The notes under the pieces are model-generated. The model had not been told where the DNA came from. It searched no databases and saw nothing but the letters and a program-made list of their open reading frames with translations. Position numbers and translations under genes: made by a program. From a virus: a DNA stretch of 64,000 bases. Numbering within the stretch: the stretch's first letter is position 1; each line of letters starts with the position of its first letter. Of the stretch, positions 31,667 through 45,422 are shown piece by piece. The stretch covers positions 62,001 to 126,000 of the IMG/VR virus record IMGVR_UViG_3300028025_000091. One strand, written 5' to 3'.

Positions 31667-33571
31667 ATGAAAAACCTTTTATTGTCCTTGTTACTTTTAA
31701 TAGTAACATTTAATGTATTTTCACAGGCACCGAATGCACCAGGAAATGGTATCTATGCCCTAATCCACCCAACTTATCAAGTTGGTCCTACTGCTACTGG
31801 TTTCACAACAGCTAATGTAACGTTGCAAAATACTACATTAACGAAATTTACAGCAACTCAATTTCGTGTGTTTTACGACAAAATTGCATTTACAAATGCT
31901 ACAGTTGCTTTAATTGGTTCTACAACTAACTTAGATATGCAATATGTAGTTAATGCTGCTAACGGTTACATTACTATTACGCTTGTATACACAGGTGCTT
32001 CTTCAACTTATACTTTAGCTGGTGGAGAAAGATTTGCAATTACATTCACACATGCTGCTCCTGCTGTATTTAACAATTTAGCTTCAATTACCAACTTAAC
32101 TTGGACAGGTGCTGCAACATTTTCACAATATGCTGCTAAACAAAATGGTATTGATACTACTTTGACATTGTACAATTATGGTGGTGTATTTACGTTACCT
32201 ACATTTACATTTGCTGGTACATTTACAAATACAACAGGTACTCCTGCTAAAAACTTACCATTAGCTTTACAAACTCGCCCTGCAGGTGGTTCCACTTGGA
32301 CACAACACTCAGCTTACTCAACTGATTTAACTGGTAACTTTACATTCACCGTTAACTTAGATACAACTTATTGGGATGTACGTTTAGCAATCCAAGGCGA
32401 TACAATGGGTATTGGAAATGCCATTTCAGCAACTGATGCACAATTGATTAATCAGTGGGTATTAGGAAACAGCACAATGTCTGGATTTGATTATTACACA
32501 GCAGATGTGAATGGCTCAAATAACGTAACAATCTCAGATGCTTATGGTGTATTTGCTAAAGTATCAGGTAACTTTACAATGTGGCCAAATAACGTTAAAA
32601 ACGTTAAATTCTTTACAGCAACCGAGTATACTACAATTAATAACTCGTCTACCAACTACACATCAACTATTGCAGGTGTCACCAACTTTACATACGAAAT
32701 CATAGCTGGACAACCTTCAACAGTAACATATTATGTTTGTGTACCGGGTGATGCGAATGGAACAGGATATCATATGGCTCGCCAAACACCAATTGAAATC
32801 TTGATTGATCCAATCCCTGGAATTCAAAATCAAATCTATAACGTAATCGATAACACAGTAGAATATGATTTTCCAACTGCACAAATTGAAGTAAACGTAC
32901 CTTATTTATCTGTACAAGCAGGAAATTTAGTTAACATTCCTGTAAAAGTGTTTACAAATGGGCAAGAATTGAATTCATTGCAATTTGGATTAAAATACGA
33001 TCCAACAGTACTTGAATTTAAAAATGCTTACTCTACTTCAAACGTAATGAAATGGTTAACATATATCAACCTAAATAACGACGAAGTTAAATGGGGTGGA
33101 TATGATGCAACAAATAATTTGAATCCATTACAAGATGGTGATGAAGTAATGACATTGCAATTTTTAGCTAAACAACCACAAAACGAATGGTTAGAAAGTC
33201 CACTTTATACAACTGATAAATTTGCAGGAGCTATCAATTCAAAAGATCTCGAAATTACACCTACAAACGGAATTTTACAAGTACTTAAATCAATCGGAGG
33301 CAAAGTAATTGACCCAAATACAATTGAAATCCAACCAAACCCAGTAACAGAAGATGTTGCAATTACATTCAACGTAACTTCAACTACAGAAGCTCATTTG
33401 GCGATTTATGATTTGCAAGGTAGAAAAATTATTACAATCCTAGACGGACAATTACCAGCAGGACAATTCACATATGTAAAAGATTTAGGTAAATTAGCTC
33501 AAGGAATGTATGTAGTTAATTTATCATTAGATAACGAAAACCCAATAAACACAAAGTTAATTAAACAATAA
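31667..33571 (+). CDS. Secreted cohesin/dockerin-like protein with T9SS type A sorting domain
   Basis: 634 aa from ATG 31667 (an upstream TTG at 31631 adds a tail that would spoil the signal peptide). Signal peptide MKNLLLSLLLLIVTFNVFSQ. Then two beta-sandwich regions. The second (FAGTFTNTTGTPAKNLPLAL onward) leads to a dockerin-like segment, GNAISATDAQLINQW and YTADVNGSNNVTISDAYG. A cohesin-like domain follows at about 395-540 (VPYLSVQAGNLVNIPVKVF, SLQFGLKYDPTVLEF). The end is a canonical Por sorting domain: IEIQPNPVTEDVAITF, HLAIYDLQGRKI, LAQGMYVVNL and KLIKQ. It heads the exported-protein cassette and shares its middle domain with the C-type lectin protein downstream. Probably displayed on the infected cell surface. 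Confidence 0.85.
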   Translation: MKNLLLSLLLLIVTFNVFSQAPNAPGNGIYALIHPTYQVGPTATGFTTANVTLQNTTLTKFTATQFRVFYDKIAFTNATVALIGSTTNLDMQYVVNAANGYITITLVYTGASSTYTLAGGERFAITFTHAAPAVFNNLASITNLTWTGAATFSQYAAKQNGIDTTLTLYNYGGVFTLPTFTFAGTFTNTTGTPAKNLPLALQTRPAGGSTWTQHSAYSTDLTGNFTFTVNLDTTYWDVRLAIQGDTMGIGNAISATDAQLINQWVLGNSTMSGFDYYTADVNGSNNVTISDAYGVFAKVSGNFTMWPNNVKNVKFFTATEYTTINNSSTNYTSTIAGVTNFTYEIIAGQPSTVTYYVCVPGDANGTGYHMARQTPIEILIDPIPGIQNQIYNVIDNTVEYDFPTAQIEVNVPYLSVQAGNLVNIPVKVFTNGQELNSLQFGLKYDPTVLEFKNAYSTSNVMKWLTYINLNNDEVKWGGYDATNNLNPLQDGDEVMTLQFLAKQPQNEWLESPLYTTDKFAGAINSKDLEITPTNGILQVLKSIGGKVIDPNTIEIQPNPVTEDVAITFNVTSTTEAHLAIYDLQGRKIITILDGQLPAGQFTYVKDLGKLAQGMYVVNLSLDNENPINTKLIKQ

Positions 33572-33574
33572 GCT

Positions 33575-33898
33575 ATGTCAGAAACAGAAACAAACGACGG
33601 CACTTGGTCAGGCCTTAAAAAAACGATCGTTGGAACATTGTCAACAGTAATCACTGGAGGTGGTGTATGGTTAGGAACAACTCTTTATGGTGGTGGACAT
33701 AATGAAGAGCCTAAAGAAGAAACCAAAACAGAACAACCAGCAGCTGCTCCGGTAATTGTAAACGTTCAACAAAACCAAGAAAACAAACAAAAAGTTGAAA
33801 ATGGTGGGGGAACAATAATCCACGAACGAGTAATTGAAAAACCAGTAGTTACTCAACCAACTACACCAACACCAAAACCTCAAGAGGAATCATGGTAA
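33575..33898 (+). CDS. Membrane-anchored Pro/Gln-rich protein, unknown function
   Basis: 107 aa. A polar N-terminus (MSETETNDGTWSGLKK) is followed by one transmembrane or weakly hydrophobic segment (TIVGTLSTVITGGGVWLGTTLYG) and an acidic/Gln/Pro-rich tail (KPVVTQPTTPTPKPQEESW) that would extend across the periplasm. It starts 3 nt after the T9SS-type gene and overlaps the CsgG-like lipoprotein gene by 7 nt. The layout resembles inner-membrane spanins, but the hydrophobic segment is Gly-rich and the partner is not a typical outer-membrane spanin. Role uncertain. Confidence 0.6.
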   Translation: MSETETNDGTWSGLKKTIVGTLSTVITGGGVWLGTTLYGGGHNEEPKEETKTEQPAAAPVIVNVQQNQENKQKVENGGGTIIHERVIEKPVVTQPTTPTPKPQEESW

Positions 33899-34620
33899 AA
33901 TTTTTATTTATATTATTGACGCTAGGGTTGTTTTCTTGCAAAACAGCCCAAGCTCAAGGTGGTATAGGTACTGTTAAAACAGAACAATATCAAGCGGATT
34001 TTGAAAAAAAACAGTCACTTGATGTTGTATCCGATTATGATGGTTCAATTCAAATTCCCATCCAATTACTTAAAATTGGAATCAATGAGGAATTATATGA
34101 AATGTACCCTGAACTTAAAGACAAACGTGTTGGTTTAGGTGTAACAAACATTGTGATCGAATATCTTGAATATACTAATCGCTTTACGTTTACTGAGGAA
34201 AAAGAAGACATTAAGCAACGTATGATTGCTCAAGATAAAGCATCTGATAAAGGCATTTCATCAAATAAAATAGAGGTAAAAGGAAATGTAGTACTTGCCA
34301 AATATTTCGTTTATATTGAAGTCTATGATTTCAGTGTATCAGAAGACGAGATAGTTAAAGTAAATGGTAAACAAACCACAACACAAACAACACGTTTAGG
34401 ATTGCAGATTAAATTCGTAGATGCTGAAACCGGCCAAATCATTGTAGGTTCTGGTTTAGGCGAAGCAAACACGGTAAAAATGTCTTCTATATTAGAAGAT
34501 ATTACTGATGAAGTAAAATTCAACCAATCCACCATAGGTACTTCAACTAAAAAAGCATTAGAAACCGCATCATCCCGAGTTGTATCACGATTAATTAGTA
34601 AAGGTGTATTCAAGAATTGA
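33892..34620 (+). CDS. CsgG-like outer-membrane lipoprotein
   Basis: 242 aa. A lipobox ends at C16 (LGLFSC) after MVKFLFILLT. The body follows the CsgG/HfaB pattern: GLGVTNIVIEYLEYTNRF then a Glu-rich EEKEDIKQRM helix, IEVKGNVVLAKYFVYIEVYDFSV (the A-x-Y-x-V-x-G-x-I strand), TRLGLQIKFVDAETGQIIVGSGLGEA (the L-R-x-V-D-x-x-TG strand) and a C-terminal helix with ALETASSRVVSRLI. CsgG forms the curli export pore in the outer membrane. CsgG-like genes are known in some marine T4-like phages. It is in the middle of the exported-protein cassette, overlapping both neighbours. Confidence 0.68.
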   Translation: MVKFLFILLTLGLFSCKTAQAQGGIGTVKTEQYQADFEKKQSLDVVSDYDGSIQIPIQLLKIGINEELYEMYPELKDKRVGLGVTNIVIEYLEYTNRFTFTEEKEDIKQRMIAQDKASDKGISSNKIEVKGNVVLAKYFVYIEVYDFSVSEDEIVKVNGKQTTTQTTRLGLQIKFVDAETGQIIVGSGLGEANTVKMSSILEDITDEVKFNQSTIGTSTKKALETASSRVVSRLISKGVFKN

Positions 34621-36113
34621 AAAAATACTTGTTTATATTATTTCTCCTGTGTACATTTAATATAAGCGCACAGACGTATAATTATAGTTATACTGATCCT
34701 TGTACTGGAAATTTAAAAACAATAATAGTTCCAATAAACGGTAATGTTACTGTTTCTTATTACGGTGAATTAGGATCATTTAATGCAAATGATTTTACAA
34801 ACGGAAATTTTGAGTCGTGGGCAAGTGGAATTTTTAACCAATATGGTCAAGATTCTCCATGTTCTCAAATTGTGGGGTTAGGAACTGCGGTTAATGTGAC
34901 ACAAAGTACAACTTTAAATGTTATGGGAATTTTAAATTCCCTATCAACAATAGCAAGTTTAACAGGTGGAGCAACAAATGTTTTAGGAGGAGCAGTTGGA
35001 TCAGTATCCAATTCTTCCGGAGATGGAGAAAGTAATAGTAACAATAACAAAAATAACAATGGAAACAATAATCCCAGTAATAATCCTAGTAACCCTAGTG
35101 GGGGTGGGAGTAGCATCCCTAATCAGCCTAATCAAAACCCACAAACTCAAAGTGGAGGAACACAAGAAGGAACAGGAACAAGCAGTAGCGAAACTAGTTC
35201 AAACCCTGAAGGAAGCGGGAGTACCGGTTCTACCTCATCCCCTGAAGGAGGAGGAAGTGAAGGAACAACCACAAGTGGTGAAAATGGAGGAACCAGTAGC
35301 GACCCAGGTAGTGGAAGCACCAGTAGTACTTCAGGAAACGGTAACGGTGGGCAAACCAGTCCGAACCAAGAAGGCTCGCAAACCACGTCCGAAAAAACAG
35401 AAGGCAAAACAAATATAACTGCCGGAGCTTCAACAACAGCTAAATCAACTCCAACCTCTAAAGAGGGAGGAAAACCAAGTGTAGTCGCGTCAAGCGACTT
35501 TGTTGGTTTTAACTTTAGAAACTCAGATGTTAAGACTGGATTAAAAGCAACAGGTGGTTATACAGCCATGAAATGGGATGGGAAACGTAGTTGGGGCGCA
35601 TTAGCCGATTATACTTCAGCTTTAAAAGGCCCAAACATTACATGCTTTTATGCTTGGATGAGACCAAAATCAGTAATTTTACTTTCAGGCACTGCAACTA
35701 TTGGATTTGAAGGAAATAAATCCTTATATGGCACTCTAGCATTTGGACAAATGTTCAAATTTAAAAAAGCACCTACCCTTAAAGTAGTTTATATGGCCAC
35801 AGCATCATACGGTCAAGTTTATAGAGTATCATTTTTGGGTACAGCAGTAATTGGTGGTGTAATGTATGATGTTAAAGTGGGTAAACGCATAGATATTAAA
35901 TTAATGAATTTGATGGTTTATGCTCCATATGTTTCATATTATAATGATGTTTTATTAAAGTCACCCTATGTAATGCTTCCTAGCATTGGAACAAACATAG
36001 GTATAACCAAGAAATTTAAATTTAACATAAACGCAGGAGGTGCTTGGGATTTAAAAACCGCAGCTCTAAACTATACAGTAACATGTGGTACAAGAATATT
36101 GGTAGGACAATAA
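34617..36113 (+). CDS. Secreted protein with low-complexity linker and putative outer-membrane beta-barrel domain
   Basis: 498 aa starting at TTG 34617, which overlaps the TGA of the CsgG-like gene (TTGA). No nearby ATG would keep the signal peptide MKKYLFILFLLCTFNISAQ. Residues about 20-135 contain a Cys-containing domain (YTDPCTGNLKTI.., DSPCSQIVG). Then follows ~150 residues of Asn/Gly/Ser/Thr repeats (about 137-285). The C-terminal ~205 residues consist of alternating amphipathic strands (DVKTGLKATGGYTAMKWDG, SVILLSGTATIGFEG, GQVYRVSFLGTAVIGGV) ending in an aliphatic strand, as in 8- to 12-stranded OMPs. The gene could be a surface adhesin or a component working with the CsgG-like pore. 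No curli repeat is seen. Confidence 0.6.
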   Translation: MKKYLFILFLLCTFNISAQTYNYSYTDPCTGNLKTIIVPINGNVTVSYYGELGSFNANDFTNGNFESWASGIFNQYGQDSPCSQIVGLGTAVNVTQSTTLNVMGILNSLSTIASLTGGATNVLGGAVGSVSNSSGDGESNSNNNKNNNGNNNPSNNPSNPSGGGSSIPNQPNQNPQTQSGGTQEGTGTSSSETSSNPEGSGSTGSTSSPEGGGSEGTTTSGENGGTSSDPGSGSTSSTSGNGNGGQTSPNQEGSQTTSEKTEGKTNITAGASTTAKSTPTSKEGGKPSVVASSDFVGFNFRNSDVKTGLKATGGYTAMKWDGKRSWGALADYTSALKGPNITCFYAWMRPKSVILLSGTATIGFEGNKSLYGTLAFGQMFKFKKAPTLKVVYMATASYGQVYRVSFLGTAVIGGVMYDVKVGKRIDIKLMNLMVYAPYVSYYNDVLLKSPYVMLPSIGTNIGITKKFKFNINAGGAWDLKTAALNYTVTCGTRILVGQ

Positions 36114-37081
36114 CATTACTCGTATTATTTTCATGTAACTTGTTTTCCCAAACATTTACATATTCCGGTTACATCAGAAATGCTGATGGTACTGGAGCTG
36201 TAAATGTACCTGTTAAATTATACAAACGTACTACTCCGACATTAACTGGCTTTACATCTCAACAAAACTATAACGGACATTCATATTATCGCTCAACTGG
36301 AAATGCTTTTTGGACAGATGCAAGAACTGCTTGTTCAAACATGGGTGGTTATCTAGTAACTGTAACTTCAGCTGCTGAAAATAATTTTATATTCGGCTTA
36401 TGGCCTTCTGGTTGGATTGGTTTAACAGATGAGGTAAACGAAGGTGTGTGGAGATGGGTAACTGGAGAAGCTTACTCATATTCTTCATGGAACCCAGGCG
36501 AACCAAATAATGCGGGTAATGAAGATTATATTCAATTTGTTGGTGGGGGTAAATGGAATGATTTACCTAACAATCAATCATTACCTTATGTTATCGAATT
36601 TGATTATATTGTCACATATACTGCTTGGACAGTACAACAAACCGTTTATACAAATTCTTTAGGATATTATTCATTTTCCCAACCAACAAACCCTTCAGTT
36701 GAATGGTATATACAATTAGATGCTCCTACACCAGTAACATCTCACACTATAACAGATATTAGAGGTGTAACAGATAATATACTAGGCAATACAGTGCGAA
36801 AAAGCATACATTGGATACAATATGATACAAACAACGATGGAAAAATAAGCGTTTCAGATGCAATATATATCAATAGAAAACAAAACTTATTAGCAACATT
36901 CCCCTATACATCTAGAATATTTACTCCAACACAATATACCTCTTTAACAACGGGTACAACTGATTTACGCTCAACTATACCAGGTGTAAGTTCAATTACA
37001 ATTAACACTCCTGTAAGTGGTACCACAACAGGAAATTATTATTTAATCGCTCCTGGGTATAAGGGGCAAGTAACTTATTGA
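36083..37081 (+). CDS. Secreted C-type lectin protein with dockerin-like repeat
   Basis: 332 aa from ATG 36083, overlapping the previous gene by 31 nt. Signal sequence MWYKNIGRTITLLVLFSCNLFSQ. A beta-sandwich domain (YSGYIRNADGTGAVNVPVKLY) is interrupted at about residue 55 by a C-type lectin domain (about 62-175). The lectin carries NGHSYYRS, WTDARTAC, WIGLTDEVNEGVWRW, the EPN motif (140-142) and WND (158-160), the Ca2+- and sugar-binding signatures of mannose/GlcNAc-type lectins. The sandwich resumes at TAWTVQQTVYT, followed by dockerin-like YDTNNDGKISVSDAIYINRK. The flanking parts match the middle of the T9SS type A protein at 31667. No T9SS sorting domain is present. Likely sugar-binding surface or virion-associated protein. 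Confidence 0.8.
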   Translation: MWYKNIGRTITLLVLFSCNLFSQTFTYSGYIRNADGTGAVNVPVKLYKRTTPTLTGFTSQQNYNGHSYYRSTGNAFWTDARTACSNMGGYLVTVTSAAENNFIFGLWPSGWIGLTDEVNEGVWRWVTGEAYSYSSWNPGEPNNAGNEDYIQFVGGGKWNDLPNNQSLPYVIEFDYIVTYTAWTVQQTVYTNSLGYYSFSQPTNPSVEWYIQLDAPTPVTSHTITDIRGVTDNILGNTVRKSIHWIQYDTNNDGKISVSDAIYINRKQNLLATFPYTSRIFTPTQYTSLTTGTTDLRSTIPGVSSITINTPVSGTTTGNYYLIAPGYKGQVTY

Positions 37082-37082
37082 C

Positions 37083-37532
37083 ATGAAACAGCTATTTTTA
37101 TCGTTATTTTTATTCCCGTTTATGCTAGTTGCACAACAATGTGTTTATGTAGATACAGTGTTTGTAACCGCAAAAGTAAGAGAATTAGGCACACGTGATA
37201 TTCGTTTTGGTATCAAACAAATTGCTGAAGATGCATTATCTGAAAAATATTGTTTGGATGAAACCGGTTTACCTATTAAAATTGAAATATACTATTTTGG
37301 TATTCCAAAAAATACCATTCGAGTGATGGGGGTAGAACGTTCAAACGTAATCACTCAAGTTGGAGTACGTTTACACTACAATAACTGTAAATATGAAGGT
37401 ATAGGCGAATCCGAAACCGAAATTACAGCAGTTTTAATCGAGGTAAAAGAAGGTACAATCCCATTTGAAAAAATGACTGTATCTAATTCCTTAAAAAAAG
37501 CCATAAATGAAGCAGTTAGTAAAATGCCTTAG
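37083..37532 (+). CDS. Secreted small protein of the exported cassette, unknown
   Basis: 149 aa. Signal peptide MKQLFLSLFLFPFMLVAQQ, starting 1 nt after the lectin stop. The mature part has alternating strands and helices (VTAKVRELGTRDIRFGIKQIAEDAL, PIKIEIYYFGI, NVITQVGVRLHYNNCKYEGIGESET) and a helix near the end (NSLKKAINEAVSKM). The strand-strand-helix finish resembles the C-terminal half of the CsgG-like protein upstream, so a partner or distant relative is conceivable. Not recognised as CsgE or CsgF. Confidence 0.6.
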   Translation: MKQLFLSLFLFPFMLVAQQCVYVDTVFVTAKVRELGTRDIRFGIKQIAEDALSEKYCLDETGLPIKIEIYYFGIPKNTIRVMGVERSNVITQVGVRLHYNNCKYEGIGESETEITAVLIEVKEGTIPFEKMTVSNSLKKAINEAVSKMP

Positions 37533-37959
37533 TATATTCTTCCCACTTATACTTTCAGCTCAAATTAAAATAGATGATGTTGGAGATGGATGGAAAAATA
37601 AAGTTGAACAAGCAATAGAGGTTGTAAAACAATACGATTCGGAAAAGTATACTTTACTTACAGAAAATTGTAACCATATCAGCTATTCTCTTTTACCTTT
37701 TTCTACTACCGAAAGTAAAAATACAATCTTAATTTCTCAAAAAGAAATTTTAAAAGGAAATGTAAACGATATAGCTGCTATTTTAGTTCATGAATCTTTA
37801 CATTTATATTTTTTAAAAAACAACATAATCCTCCCCGAAAATGAGGAAGAAATATTGTGTTACACGTATGAGCTTGAATTGCTTTTTAAAATACCTGATG
37901 TAGAACCGTGGTTAATAGACCATGCAAAAAAACAAATTGAATTTTATACAAACCCTTAA
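37507..37959 (+). CDS. Secreted HExxH metalloprotease-like protein
   Basis: 150 aa from ATG 37507, overlapping the previous gene by 26 nt. Signal peptide MKQLVKCLSIFFPLILSAQ. A short zincin-like core follows: ILVHESLHLYF with H95-E96-x-x-H99, and a downstream Glu-rich NEEEILCYTYELEL helix that could give the third ligand. The mature part is only ~130 residues, smaller than most secreted metalloproteases, and has no pro-domain. It ends the exported-protein cassette directly before the late element of the lysis genes. Could process cassette proteins or envelope proteins. Catalysis is inferred from motif only. Confidence 0.6.
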   Translation: MKQLVKCLSIFFPLILSAQIKIDDVGDGWKNKVEQAIEVVKQYDSEKYTLLTENCNHISYSLLPFSTTESKNTILISQKEILKGNVNDIAAILVHESLHLYFLKNNIILPENEEEILCYTYELELLFKIPDVEPWLIDHAKKQIEFYTNP

Positions 37960-37982: not shown

Positions 37983-38231
37983 ATGAAAAAATTTTTTAAT
38001 CAATTGTTTGACGACAATAACTCAATCAACGAAAAAGCAGTAGTTGGTTTTATTGCATTTATTATGCTTTGCATATCATTAGCAGTAGATTTAATTACTG
38101 GAGCATGGGGTAAAGAATTATTAATTAACAAATTCATTTTTGATGGATTTATGGTAATTGTATTAGGGTCATTCGGAATTGCTTCCGTTGACAAGTGGAT
38201 TAACAAGAAAAAAGATAAAGACGAAGAGTAA
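37983..38231 (+). CDS. Holin-like membrane protein
   Basis: 82 aa with two hydrophobic segments: AVVGFIAFIMLCISLAVDLI (about 19-38) and FDGFMVIVLGSFGIASV (about 53-69). The N-terminus is charged and short and the C-terminus is strongly basic/acidic (KWINKKKDKDEE). Two-pass size and adjacency to the GH19 endolysin (ATG overlaps by 1 nt) fit a class II-type holin. No specific family is confirmed. Confidence 0.72.
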   Translation: MKKFFNQLFDDNNSINEKAVVGFIAFIMLCISLAVDLITGAWGKELLINKFIFDGFMVIVLGSFGIASVDKWINKKKDKDEE

Positions 38232-38842
38232 TGAGTTTAAAAAGTTTACAAGAAAAGATCGGAGTTACCGCGGATGGTGCTTTTGGTCCCGGAACGTTGA
38301 AAGCCGCAATGGCATTTTACAAACTAACCCCAGTACGTGCAGCACATTTCTTTGCACAAACAGCACATGAAACTGGTGAGTATAAATTGTTTAGTGAAAA
38401 CCTAAACTATTCAGCAGCAGGTTTGCAAGGTACTTTTGGAAAATATTTTCCTGGTACACTAGAAGAATCTTACGCTCGTAACCCTGAAAAAATTGCTAAC
38501 AGAGTTTATGCAGATAGAATGGGTAACGGAAACGAAGCTTCAGGTGACGGATGGAAATACAGAGGTCGTGGTGCATTACAATTAACTGGAAAAGCTAATT
38601 ATAAAGCATTTGCTGATTATTTGAAAAAACCTGAAATTATGGAAACACCTGATTTAGTAGCATCAACATATGCTTTTGAATCAGCAATGTTCTTCTTTGA
38701 CAAAAACAAATTATGGTCAATTTGTGATCAAGGTGTGAATGAAGCAGCTATTTTGGCTTTAACAAAACGCATCAATGGTGGAACAAATGGTTTAGACCAT
38801 AGAAAATTATTAACTAACAAATATTACGGATACGTAAAATAA
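38231..38842 (+). CDS. Endolysin, GH19 chitinase-type glycoside hydrolase
   Basis: 203 aa. The first ~30 residues look like part of a peptidoglycan-binding unit (LQEKIGVTADGAFGPGTLKA). The rest is a GH19 lysozyme-like domain: AAHFFAQTAHETGEYKLFSE with E47 as the likely acid, NRVYADRMGNG, GWKYRGRGALQLTGKANY (the conserved FRGRGxxQxTG core) and a final RINGGTNGLDHR. It hydrolyses the glycan of peptidoglycan at lysis. No signal peptide, so it depends on the holin. Starts within the last base of the holin stop. Confidence 0.9.
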   Translation: MSLKSLQEKIGVTADGAFGPGTLKAAMAFYKLTPVRAAHFFAQTAHETGEYKLFSENLNYSAAGLQGTFGKYFPGTLEESYARNPEKIANRVYADRMGNGNEASGDGWKYRGRGALQLTGKANYKAFADYLKKPEIMETPDLVASTYAFESAMFFFDKNKLWSICDQGVNEAAILALTKRINGGTNGLDHRKLLTNKYYGYVK

Positions 38843-38847
38843 GAATT

Positions 38848-39315
38848 ATGCAATTAAGTGAACATTTAGCATTAGCAGAAGTTACAAAAAGTGACACTGC
38901 AAAACGTAAAGGAATTTCAAACATGCCTACTGAAGCGCATTTAGCAAATTTCAAATTATTGGCAGAAAATATTTTTGAACCAATCAGAGTTCATTTTGGA
39001 GTCCCAATCCATTTATCTTCAGGATACCGCTCAGCTGAATTAAATAAAGCTGTTGGTGGTGCTCTTTCTTCCCAACATTGTAGTGGTGAAGCAATTGATA
39101 TTGATATGGATGGACGTCCTGGTGGAGTTACCAATAAAATGGTGTTTGATTATATCAAAGATAATTTAAATTTTGATCAATTAATTTGGGAATTTGGAAC
39201 ATCTACAGCTCCAGATTGGGTACACGTTTCTTATGAATCAACAGGTAAACAAAGAAAGCAAATCCTTAAAGCAGTTCGCAAAGGTAGTGCTACATCTTAT
39301 GTACCATATAAATAA
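38848..39315 (+). CDS. Peptidase M15-type D-Ala-D-Ala carboxypeptidase / endolysin
   Basis: 155 aa. Zinc-binding set: H77 and D84 in SSQHCSGEAIDID (SxHxxGxAxD) and H126 in WVHVSY, with E115 in LIWEFG as the catalytic Glu position. The N-terminal helix pair (LNKAVGGALS; LSSGYRSAELN) is the M15_3 signature. It trims peptide stems or cross-links in peptidoglycan, complementing the GH19 enzyme. The full length matches phage M15 proteins. It follows the endolysin by 5 nt. Confidence 0.88.
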   Translation: MQLSEHLALAEVTKSDTAKRKGISNMPTEAHLANFKLLAENIFEPIRVHFGVPIHLSSGYRSAELNKAVGGALSSQHCSGEAIDIDMDGRPGGVTNKMVFDYIKDNLNFDQLIWEFGTSTAPDWVHVSYESTGKQRKQILKAVRKGSATSYVPYK

Positions 39316-41123: not shown

Positions 41124-44100
41124 ATGAGCACAATAATAACAAGAAATAGCGCAACATCAGGAAGTACTCCTTCTTCACTTGTACAAGGTGAATTAGCAAT
41201 CAATGTAACTGATGGTCGTTTATTCTATGGTTCGGGTTCTGGAAATATTGTAAAAGAATTTACTGGAAGTGCTAGTGGTGGAACAATTGATACTGGTTCA
41301 TTTGTAACGACTTCATCATTTAATGCTTATACTGGTTCTAATACGTCTCAATTCGCAGGAACTGCGTCATATGCTACAACAGCATCGTATGCTTTAAACG
41401 CTTTAAGTGCTTCTTATGCCTTAACAGCATCATTTATTACTGCTTCAAATGTTTATGGACCTTTTGGTTCAAACAGTATTGTTTCTGCATCATATGCTGC
41501 TACTGCTTCATATGCAACTACAACCTCAGATATTTTAGTATTAGTTAAAAACCAAACTGGGGACACTATTGCAAAAGGTGTTGTAGTTCGAATTACAGGT
41601 TCAAACACATCTAGTGATATCCCTCGTATTGTAACAGCATCTTATGAAAATGATAACAATTCTGCAAATACTTTAGGTATTACCAACCAATCCATTGCAA
41701 ATGGAGACGATGGTTATGTAATGACCGAAGGAATCTTACTTGGAATTGATACAAATGCATTTATTTCAGGTCAGTTAATTTATCTAGGTGCAACAGGATC
41801 CATTATAGGATATGCACCTCAAGCACCTTTACATAATGTTCGTTTAGGTGAAGTTGTTCGTCAACAATCTAATAATGGTTCAATTTATGTTCGTATAGAC
41901 AATGGATATGAATTAGAAGAATTACATGATGTACGAATCACTAGCGCTTCTTCAGGTGACTTATTAATCCGTTCAGCTAGTGTTTGGATTAATTCCAAAC
42001 AACTTTCAGGTTCATATGGCTTAACAGGTAGTTTAACTGCTACTTCATTTACAGGAAGTTTATTTGGAACTTCAAGTTGGGCAAATAATGCTCAAACGTC
42101 TCAAACTTCTAGTTATGTTTTAAATGCAATAAGTGCTTCATATTCTCAAACAGCATCATATCTAAATACACTTAATCAAGATTTAACATTTAATGGAAAT
42201 CTAACATTAAATGGTACTGCATCAATCTCATTTTTAAATGTGGCTTATGAATCTGCTTCTGTAATATACTCAAGTGGTTCAAACCAATTTGGAGATGCTT
42301 CAAACGACGTTCAAACGCTTTGGGGAACAGTTGATGTAAAAACAGGTCCTGTTTTAGTAACTGGATCTTTAAATGTATCTGGAGGTATAACAGGTAGTTT
42401 GCTTGGAACTTCTTCATATGCTGTTCAATCATTGTCTAGTTCATATGCTCAAACAGCTTCATATGTTCAAAACGCTCAAACAGCTTCTTATGTTTTAAAT
42501 GCTGTTTCAAGTTCATATGCATCAAATGCTTTAAGTGCTTCTTATGCTGTAACCTCTTCATATTCAAATAATTCAACTAGTGCTTCATATGCAATTAATT
42601 CTACAACAGCACAAACTGCTAGTTATGTTTTAAATGCAGTAAGCGCCTCTTATGCTACAACGGCATCATATTATGGAGGAAGTGTTATAAGTGCTTCATA
42701 TGCTGCAACTGCTTCATATGTTCAAAACGCTCAAACGGCATCGTATGTTTTAAATGCTATTTCAAGTTCATATGCATTAAGTGCTTCTTATTCTACAACT
42801 TCATCATATTCAAATAATTCAACTAGTGCGTCATATGCAATCAATGCTACAACATCACAAACCGCTAGTTATGTTTTAAATGCAATAAGTGCTTCATATG
42901 CTACTCAAGCATTATCAAGTTCATTTTCTTCAACTGCTTCTTATTATGGTGGAAATGTTGTAAGTGCCTCATATGCAACAACCGCTTCATATGTACAAAA
43001 TGCTATAAGTGCCTCATATGCTACAAACGCATCTAGTGCTTCTGTCTTAGACCTATACAGTATTACTTCCAATACAAATAGCTACTTACTCTTTTCAAAT
43101 ACAATAGCTGCTACGGGACAAATTGTAGGAGGGGATAATGATTTACGATATAACTCTAGTACAAATACATTAACAGCAGTTAATATTTCTGCATCAAGTT
43201 TAACAGGTTCTTTATTTGGAACTGCTTCATATGCTACACAAGCTATAACCGCTCAAACAGCTTCATACGTTATAAACTCTATAAGTTCTTCATACGCTCA
43301 GACAGCTTCGTATGTTTTAAATGCAATAAGTTCTTCATATACTACTCAAGCATTGTCAAGTTCGTATTCTATAACTGCTTCATACTCAACGTTAGCACAA
43401 ACTGCATCTTACGTTCTACAAGCTGTAAGTGCATCATATGCTGCAACTGCTTCATATGTTCAAACAGCACAAACAGCATCTTACGTTCAAAATGCTCAAA
43501 CAGCATCTTATGTTTTAAATGCCATAAGCGCTTCATATGCTTTAAATGCTACAACAGCACAAACTGCATCTTACGTTCAAAATGCTCAAACCGCTTCATA
43601 CGTTTTAAATGCTCAAACCGCTTCATATATTCAAACGGCTCAAACCGCATCATATGTTTTAAACGCTGTAAGTGCATCATATGTTACTCAAGCATTATCA
43701 AGTTCATTTGCATCAACTGCTTCATATGTTAATCCACTTAACCAAAATGTATTAATTACAGGTAGTGCTACAATTGGATCATCTAGTTTAGGTCCATTTG
43801 AAAATACTATAACTTTAGGAGCACGTGATAGTGCAAATGAAGGTGGTCAAATAGGATTCAATGCACCTGGAGGAACATATACATCTGCCTCATTTATTGA
43901 CAACTGGTCAAATTACGCCCGCATATTACGTGGAACAAATGCAAGTAGTACCGGATTGGTAGCTCAGTGGAACCTTCACACTCTTCAAATGCAGTTACCT
44001 GCATACACTAATGCATCATCATTTCCAGGAACCGCTACAGCTAATTTAGCAATTGACTCAGGTGGTAACATTATAACAGTATCAACAACCGGAGGATCAG

Positions 44101-45422
44101 TTTTCCCTTATGTTGGAGACGCAGTTATAACAGGTTCATTAACTACAACTGGTATAATTTATGCTCAACCAAATGGAGGTATGTACTTCCAAGGTGGAGA
44201 TGATGCTGCCTTATATGACATCAACGTAGCAAATACTATGGGTATCTATGGTATGCAAACCGTTACAGAAGGAGCAATAAAGTTAGGAAGTAATGGCCCT
44301 GTACTCTATGGCTCAGGCAGTAGACTTGGATTAGGCACAACAACTCCTACTTCAGCCTCTTTAACTGTTAATGGTAACGTGTGGGCAAACTCATTTACTG
44401 GATCATTACAAGGAACATCCTCATATGCAACTCAAGCGTTAAGTGCTTCATATGCTTTAAGTGCTACAACTGCAAATACTGCTTCATATGTTCAAAATGC
44501 TCAAACAGCATCTTATGTTCAAACAGCACAAACTGCTTCATATGTTTTAAATGCTATATCAAGCTCATATGCTTTAAGTGCCTCATTTTCAGTATCTTCA
44601 TCTAGAGCAGTAAGTGCTTCATTTGCAACTACTGCATCTTATTATGGAGGAAGTGTGATTAGTGCTTCATATGCAGCTACCGCTTCATATGTTAACCCAT
44701 TAATACAAAATGTAATAGTTACCGGTTCATTAGATATAAGTGGTTCATTTATTGCATATGATGAAAGTAATGTTAAAGCAATACAAGCAAATTTATCAAA
44801 ACGTTCATTATTTGATACAAGTGCTGTTGTATCTGTAAATTGGAGTGGTAGAGGTTTATACACTCCATCTTCTATATTAGCTATAGATTGGAGCGATAAC
44901 AATTACTTAGATTCAAACGTTTACCAAAGAGATTATAAATCTGCAACTACACAAAATGCAGTATCAAATACAATTAATAATGCTTATTCTTCATATCTAG
45001 GAGACATAATTGAAGTAGATGGTGTAAATACAATTATCAATGGGACTGTAAATGATGGTATGTTAGTTTATTTGGATACTGATGCTACTTGGTATCCTGT
45101 TAATCAAAGTAGTACTACGGCTACTAAAATGATAGGAATAGCATGTAACGTTGCAGGTCCTACAGGATTTATACTCCTAGAAGGACATGTTGTTATTGAT
45201 GATTCTGGAGCTAATAGACCAACCGTAACAGGAGCAGACCATGGACTTCCAGTTTATATTGAAGATAGTACAACCAATGGTAGAATGTCTACAACGTTAC
45301 CAACAACTGCTGGTGGAAATAATGTAATACGCGTAGTAGGACATTGTTATTGGAATAACACAGGAACATCCTCCCAATGGATGATGAAATTTAGACCATC
45401 AAATGATTGGATCACAATATAA
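41124..45422 (+). CDS. Giant ASYA-repeat fibre protein
   Basis: 1,432 aa. N-terminus: a GELAINVTDGRLFYGSGSG unit, typical of fibre heads that follow a trimerisation region. Dozens of ASYA/ASYV-x-x-A units then fill about residues 70-900 and 1100-1190 (pattern: (S/T)ASY(A/V)-x-x-A-(I/V/Q)). Three spacer domains interrupt them: a beta-rich domain (DILVLVKNQTGDTIAKGVVVRITG), one near 860-1000 with a TLGARDSANEGGQIGFN core, and a C-terminal unit (GMLVYLDTDATWYPV, GFILLEGHVVID). The C-terminus ends WMMKFRPSNDWITI. Reads as a long rod with repeat segments and small globular heads, for host attachment. The DNA repeats are near-identical in places. Confidence 0.8.
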   Translation: MSTIITRNSATSGSTPSSLVQGELAINVTDGRLFYGSGSGNIVKEFTGSASGGTIDTGSFVTTSSFNAYTGSNTSQFAGTASYATTASYALNALSASYALTASFITASNVYGPFGSNSIVSASYAATASYATTTSDILVLVKNQTGDTIAKGVVVRITGSNTSSDIPRIVTASYENDNNSANTLGITNQSIANGDDGYVMTEGILLGIDTNAFISGQLIYLGATGSIIGYAPQAPLHNVRLGEVVRQQSNNGSIYVRIDNGYELEELHDVRITSASSGDLLIRSASVWINSKQLSGSYGLTGSLTATSFTGSLFGTSSWANNAQTSQTSSYVLNAISASYSQTASYLNTLNQDLTFNGNLTLNGTASISFLNVAYESASVIYSSGSNQFGDASNDVQTLWGTVDVKTGPVLVTGSLNVSGGITGSLLGTSSYAVQSLSSSYAQTASYVQNAQTASYVLNAVSSSYASNALSASYAVTSSYSNNSTSASYAINSTTAQTASYVLNAVSASYATTASYYGGSVISASYAATASYVQNAQTASYVLNAISSSYALSASYSTTSSYSNNSTSASYAINATTSQTASYVLNAISASYATQALSSSFSSTASYYGGNVVSASYATTASYVQNAISASYATNASSASVLDLYSITSNTNSYLLFSNTIAATGQIVGGDNDLRYNSSTNTLTAVNISASSLTGSLFGTASYATQAITAQTASYVINSISSSYAQTASYVLNAISSSYTTQALSSSYSITASYSTLAQTASYVLQAVSASYAATASYVQTAQTASYVQNAQTASYVLNAISASYALNATTAQTASYVQNAQTASYVLNAQTASYIQTAQTASYVLNAVSASYVTQALSSSFASTASYVNPLNQNVLITGSATIGSSSLGPFENTITLGARDSANEGGQIGFNAPGGTYTSASFIDNWSNYARILRGTNASSTGLVAQWNLHTLQMQLPAYTNASSFPGTATANLAIDSGGNIITVSTTGGSVFPYVGDAVITGSLTTTGIIYAQPNGGMYFQGGDDAALYDINVANTMGIYGMQTVTEGAIKLGSNGPVLYGSGSRLGLGTTTPTSASLTVNGNVWANSFTGSLQGTSSYATQALSASYALSATTANTASYVQNAQTASYVQTAQTASYVLNAISSSYALSASFSVSSSRAVSASFATTASYYGGSVISASYAATASYVNPLIQNVIVTGSLDISGSFIAYDESNVKAIQANLSKRSLFDTSAVVSVNWSGRGLYTPSSILAIDWSDNNYLDSNVYQRDYKSATTQNAVSNTINNAYSSYLGDIIEVDGVNTIINGTVNDGMLVYLDTDATWYPVNQSSTTATKMIGIACNVAGPTGFILLEGHVVIDDSGANRPTVTGADHGLPVYIEDSTTNGRMSTTLPTTAGGNNVIRVVGHCYWNNTGTSSQWMMKFRPSNDWITI
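42400..43740 (+). repeat. Tandem coding repeats of the ASYA type
   Basis: Short imperfect units, typically CAAAC-GCTTCATATGTT-TTAAATGCT and related, repeat through this stretch of the giant fibre gene. Units of about 24-60 nt are nearly identical and probably expand or contract by recombination. They also occur at lower density in the rest of the gene and in its neighbours (39577, 40846, 45432). Long-read or assembly errors are likely here. Confidence 0.75.

Follow-up and report, generated by a model that had tools for sequence, protein, structure and literature searches.

The open reading frame P0001 (positions 36083..37081, + strand) raises the question of how a C-type lectin came to lie inside another domain of a viral protein, and what such a protein might do for the phage that encodes it. 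We analysed P0001 within a window of 64,000 nucleotides that belongs to a virus record of 173,789 bases. The reading frame, its length of 332 aa, and the motifs EPN (residues 140-142) and WND (158-160) were exactly as an earlier note on this DNA had given them.

The lectin insertion in P0001

P0001 starts with a Bacteroidota-type signal peptide and consists of a lectin nested in an X-module, a small beta-sandwich, and followed by a dockerin-like segment. We placed the lectin at 36236..36616 (+; residues 52-178), using the excision peak described below, the Pfam Lectin_C match (residues 77-170; E 1.3e-16; 61.7 bits, above the curated cut-off of 22.6), and the residues of calcium site 2 (E140, P141, N142, E147, W158, N159, and D160), which were invariant in the 34 aligned sequences. 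AlphaFold confidence in the lectin was low (pLDDT 33-56), and a Foldseek search with the P0001 model returned no match at E <= 0.001 because this region was poorly modelled; the lectin identity rests on sequence, not on the model. A polycystin identity was rejected, as the NCBIfam match covers only the lectin and falls far below its cut-off. We also set aside a variable lectin driven by a retroelement: no reverse transcriptase (RVT_1) was found in the 173.8 kb record, which may be incomplete, so that a diversity-generating retroelement target is not supported, and conservation within the P0001 family, by our alignment of 34 relatives (A1), is highest in the lectin.

The earlier note had proposed that the lectin splits a beta-sandwich in two and that the type IX secretion system (T9SS) protein at 31667, P0002, has the same domain uninterrupted. 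BLASTP and profile alignment bore this out. P0001 residues 24-49 matched P0002 residues 179-204 (E 1e-3), and residues 182-325 matched 211-361 (E 2e-7). When the lectin was excised by deleting residues 52-180 of the family alignment, 178 profile columns aligned to P0002 179-364 with an E value of 9e-27, the lone gap being three residues at the insertion site; when it was retained, the E value was 1.8e-21 and the N-terminal half was lost. Sliding the excision boundaries gave the best score with starts at 52-56 and ends at 176-180. Judged by the BLASTP matches, the excised-profile E value, and this boundary peak, the similarity of the flanks is far more than chance would be expected to give.

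In the AlphaFold2 model of P0001, the parts outside the lectin have pLDDT values of mostly 82-95. Half 1 of the X-module (36152..36235, +; residues 24-51) contributes strands 23-32 and 43-50, and half 2 (36623..36730, +; residues 181-216) contributes strands 183-189, 195-202, and 206-213, followed by three helices; both halves were delimited from the model and the profile alignment. P0002 is predicted to contain an unbroken series (179-188, 198-205, 212-218, 224-230, and 236-243), also followed by three helices. From these matching series, the models place the lectin in the loop between sandwich strands 2 and 3. The flanks therefore correspond, in the order of predicted strands and helices and in a profile alignment that runs across the closed site. 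The proposal that a lectin was inserted into one copy of a duplicated scaffold is supported by this correspondence with P0002 and, more strongly still, by uninterrupted copies that relatives carry in the place of the orthologous gene.

The dockerin-like segment and the STI-x-GV block had also been said to match P0002, and the longer BLASTP alignment spans both, with two corrections. First, the STI-x-GV block (36980..37060, +; about residues 300-326) appears in the model to supply the final part of the same sandwich, downstream of the dockerin. Using VIA-align, we matched the P0001 sandwich to B-like (UafA, SdrD), transthyretin-like, and pilin domains over model residues 24 to 324 (X-module against the UafA B domain: Z 8.1, 84 residues, 2.3 A). 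Since 84-95 residues were aligned, exceeding the two X-module halves, the last strands are most likely part of the sandwich, and since they follow the dockerin, it is probably nested as well. This reading comes from a single model with Z near 8 and could reflect only a common arrangement. An SdrD_B match (E 0.0022) was obtained on a relative.

Second, the segment (36734..36907, +; about residues 218-275) is called dockerin-like because Dockerin_1 fell below the Pfam cut-off: the match in P0001 (223-265; E 0.022) and that in P0002 were both sub-threshold, with scores of 15.4 and 17.1 bits against a curated 22.9. By VIA alignment, the P0001 segment matched 8x39_A (Z 6.0, rmsd 2.1, 57 residues), and its helices, which are present in the model, matched dockerin chains at Z 5-6. 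The first calcium loop is degenerate. The second is a canonical, conserved D-x-N-x-D loop (D248-x-N250-x-D252...D259) in which D248, N250, and D259 are invariant and D252 is nearly so across the 34 sequences of A1.

One further explanation is that a host surface protein was captured whole and is carried as a passenger, as might be suggested by the many closest bacterial lectins that come from Bacteroidota. However, bacterial genome contigs matched only the lectin part (about residues 53-181; nearest lectins 47-52% identical, with matches ending at about 53 and 174-181), and the full architecture was missing from these matches except in one phage-like contig binned in a MAG. The scaffold profile matched none of 397 genomes in the family of Ulvibacter antarcticus, a flavobacterial family, yet the same profile does match the phage-like contig in a MAG. 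On these data, P0001 is not a common host protein taken over intact, which the earlier note had named as a possible refutation, and we regard the passenger explanation as highly improbable. A phage-like contig with the cassette described below, L092, is binned into a Sphingomonadaceae MAG.

Lectins of the same family also occur in loops of HYR/Ig-like repeats in Bacteroidota surface proteins, several per protein, on three bacterial genome contigs (L123, L096, and L094). Closing the lectin site in one Bacteroidota protein restored a full-length, single-stretch HYR match. These nested lectins resemble P0001 in lying in a beta-sandwich loop, but the sandwich is a different one, the proteins lack a dockerin and are chromosomal, and no payload exchange has been shown for them.

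Payload exchange at the X-module loop

Because a lectin-based search would bias a census of the slot, we anchored loci on CsgG and P0002 rather than on the lectin; the counted loci hold CsgG, g498, and g149. An X-dockerin protein was present in 111 of 114 anchored loci (46 with lectin, 47 with lectin plus LamG, and 18 other X-dockerin proteins), and the remaining three contained long, multi-domain ones. Some contigs are counted twice in this set. The slot proteins, 150 of them distinct, comprised 72 with lectin, 27 with lectin plus LamG, 25 with payload C, 10 with an N-terminal lectin, 5 with payload D, 5 with GEVED, and 6 other or partial proteins. Slot classes were assigned from profile hits and simple motifs, and individual assignments may err.

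In some relatives (L071-L080 and L203-L206), there are two levels of nesting, with LamG inserted into a lectin that in turn lies within the X-module. In others, the same loop holds PA14, payload C (an unrelated, unnamed domain of about 200 aa), or payload D, a second unnamed domain. Still others have an unbroken X-module preceded by GEVED or a separate lectin, and thus provide natural empty loops at the orthologous gene. By these comparisons, which go beyond the view taken in the earlier note, the P0001 loop is a site where several unrelated domains were exchanged: an insertion point produced by natural evolution, at which no fewer than four unrelated payloads (C-type lectin, PA14, and the two unnamed domains) are tolerated.

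Near-identical phages differ at this site. L022 and L177 share 96.2% identity over 3080 bp ahead of the payload and 94.4% over 3370 bp beyond it, and the payloads between these flanks are unrelated, one a lectin and the other payload C. Similarly, L047 and L183/L184 have identical CsgG proteins and are 96-97% identical in both flanks, but their payloads differ. Lectin and payload D are swapped at 91-95% flank identity, and lectin and GEVED at 86-89%. We counted at least 36 changes of payload class on a CsgG tree, a figure that is only approximate because the tree was built quickly and leaves many forks unresolved. A single clade (SH-aLRT 99) unites the inserted lectins and separates them from 117 bacterial lectins and 4 N-terminal phage lectins, from which we infer that the lectin entered the loop once within the sampled set and then spread by recombination. 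As related viruses carry other adhesion-type domains at the same loop, the lectin looks like an interchangeable binding head that would serve on the exterior of the infected cell.

Genes of the exported cassette

P0001 is one of six genes that in relatives lie in the order P0002, 107-aa protein, CsgG-like protein, 498-aa protein, lectin protein, and 149-aa protein. The cassette is common to many phage contigs and to the cultured Flavobacterium phage immuto, and its carriers are viruses of Flavobacterium-like bacteria. The immuto orthologues (QQO91692-QQO91695; lectin protein 53% identical) carry no annotation beyond lectin and cohesin domain proteins. Gene order differs in the immuto clade, where P0002 is also split into proteins of 371 and 245 aa, with the cohesin and the sorting domain in the second.

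P0002 (31667..33571, +; 634 aa) comprises a signal peptide, a cohesin-like region (about 25-170), the uninterrupted X-module (179-243), a dockerin-like segment (250-300), a cohesin (405-535), and a T9SS type A sorting domain (549-634). The Pfam Cohesin match met its cut-off narrowly (E 3.8e-5; 24.3 bits against 24.1), with 36.7 bits in the immuto counterpart, and the fold agreed (Z 13.3, rmsd 2.9 over 130 residues of 6kgf). The sorting domain matched Por_Secre_tail (E 2.1e-9) and TIGR04183 (E 6.2e-9; 35.7 bits against 23), as expected of T9SS type A cargo, and aligned with the PorU CTD in the PDB at Z 10. We compared 27 relatives in a second alignment (A2). By its module content, P0002 reads as a T9SS-anchored cohesin-dockerin scaffoldin, in which cohesin-dockerin binding is inferred. 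It resembles the cellulosome scaffoldin CipA (PDB 3kcp; Z 11.4, 229 residues, rmsd 9.8) in the order of its first three modules (cohesin, X-module, dockerin), which is found at the CipA end, in the cohesin fold, and in the calcium loop. Unlike CipA, it is phage-encoded, carries a T9SS sorting domain, and has no enzymes; moreover, in P0001 a payload is nested in the X-module and the dockerin is degenerate and probably nested too.

The other members are less well defined. The 107-aa protein (33575..33898, +), a conserved cassette member, has a single hydrophobic segment and ends in a polar tail rich in Pro and Glu. The next gene encodes a 242-aa CsgG-like lipoprotein (33892..34620, +) with the lipobox LFSC; lipobox-like motifs were found in 88 of 148 relatives. 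Confidence in the CsgG assignment is moderate, as only two of 14 family members matched Pfam CsgG (best 9.4e-5) and the window protein itself had no match. The 498-aa exported protein (34617..36113, +) has a low-complexity middle and no family match, and the 149-aa exported protein (37083..37532, +) is, by profile comparison with the CsgG-like family (hhalign, E 5.8e-6), a short relative of the CsgG-like protein; both are conserved in position. We saw no match to CsgA, CsgB, or CsgF within the cassette, nothing useful came from searching PDB profiles with the families of the CsgG-like, 149-aa, and 498-aa proteins and of payload C, and PHROGs contained no match for the lectin, T9SS, CsgG-like, 498-aa, or 149-aa proteins. 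A protein of 150 aa (37507-37959) that has an HESLH motif and only weakly matches Peptidase_C97 and SprT-like profiles is often found near the cassette, and a 1432-aa protein further on (41124-45422), with many TASYVLNAISASY-type repeats, is probably a tail fibre.

By a simple hydrophobicity rule, hydrophobic leaders were present in 67 of 72 lectin slot proteins, all 25 payload-C slot proteins, and 130 of 136 CsgG-like proteins. These export signals bear on the improbable explanation that the cassette proteins are virion components, decorating capsid or tail and sticking to glycans. Ig-like and C-type lectin domains are known from phage virions, on which the C-type lectin fold occurs commonly, but consistent N-terminal export signals, a CsgG-like lipobox, and a T9SS sorting domain are not what such components would lead us to expect.

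Likely lysis genes, for a small membrane protein and GH19-type and M15-type enzymes, adjoin the cassette in the window (37983-39315). The cassette might therefore act in lysis and release, with the CsgG-like pore and the one-TM and 498-aa proteins breaching the outer membrane and the surface lectin as an accessory. A lysis role has been proposed for the phage CsgGF of methylophage Melnitz (PMC9004378). However, the endolysin neighbours vary among relatives, and this explanation, which we consider unlikely, leaves the T9SS-sorted cohesin scaffold and the exchangeable glycan-binding domains unaccounted for.

Possible roles of the cassette

C-type lectin, LamG, PA14, and GEVED families are linked to glycan binding or surface adhesion, and phages are known to change host surfaces. 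Since export signals are near-universal and the payloads belong to such families, we favour display on the infected cell, in which P0001 would act as an adhesin and serve a phage-encoded cell-surface display cassette as its exchangeable binding subunit; for this we see roughly even chances. At the level of sequence, the signal peptides, nested lectin, X-dockerin scaffold, T9SS-sorted cohesin partner, CsgG-like neighbour, and repeated lectin replacement are established, while display, docking, and ligand are inferred. During infection, the cassette proteins would leave by Sec, and the host type IX system would take over P0002, which would end up anchored to the outside of the cell. P0001 would dock on a P0002 cohesin through its dockerin-like segment, an interaction for which there are no binding data and no modelled complex. 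The lectin would then face outward and bind glycans in a calcium-dependent manner, EPN predicting mannose/GlcNAc-type sugars. The likely gain is that infected cells or debris would adhere to particles or other host cells, and recombination at the loop would change the ligand.

Several points weigh against display. There are no binding, secretion, or localisation data. No C-terminal T9SS sorting domain was found in P0001 with Pfam or NCBIfam, so its route across the outer membrane is unexplained, and the CsgG-like protein is only a candidate. We also weighed the sub-cut-off dockerin with its degenerate first calcium loop, the low lectin pLDDT, and the split of P0002 in the immuto clade.

A displayed domain might instead cover or compete for receptor glycans and so exclude other phages, with payload diversity arising from that competition. 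The frequent exchange of payloads among near-identical phages and the surface location inferred from signals would fit, but the residues of the lectin's sugar site are invariant across the P0001 family, which would be odd for an arms race, and there are no direct data; we therefore doubt superinfection exclusion strongly. More tentatively than for adhesin display itself, the cassette may be an undescribed phage surface-display machine, in which a cohesin-dockerin scaffold is placed outside through the host type IX system and a plug-in loop for swapping adhesion domains sets what the infected cell sticks to.

In the literature on phage cohesin/dockerin with T9SS, we found no description of such a cassette, and an earlier study of Baltic Flavobacterium phages contains no mention of lectin or mass spectrometry. 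Among the closest parallels are the CsgGF cassettes of pelagimyophages, for which "sibling capture" was proposed (PMC7029224), and that of Melnitz (PMC9004378). They too contain a phage CsgG-type outer-membrane protein in a small conserved cluster of unclear function, but the present cassette differs in its cohesin-dockerin scaffold, which is T9SS-sorted, and in a glycan-binding subunit whose head can be exchanged.

If adhesin display is correct, phages would have a new means of directing the contacts of infected cells, through a conserved cassette whose glycan-binding head can be swapped. The cassette also provides the "sibling capture" idea on phage CsgG cassettes with a concrete candidate effector, and its presence in the cultured phage immuto, which grows on Flavobacterium sp. 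LMO8, makes that idea directly testable.
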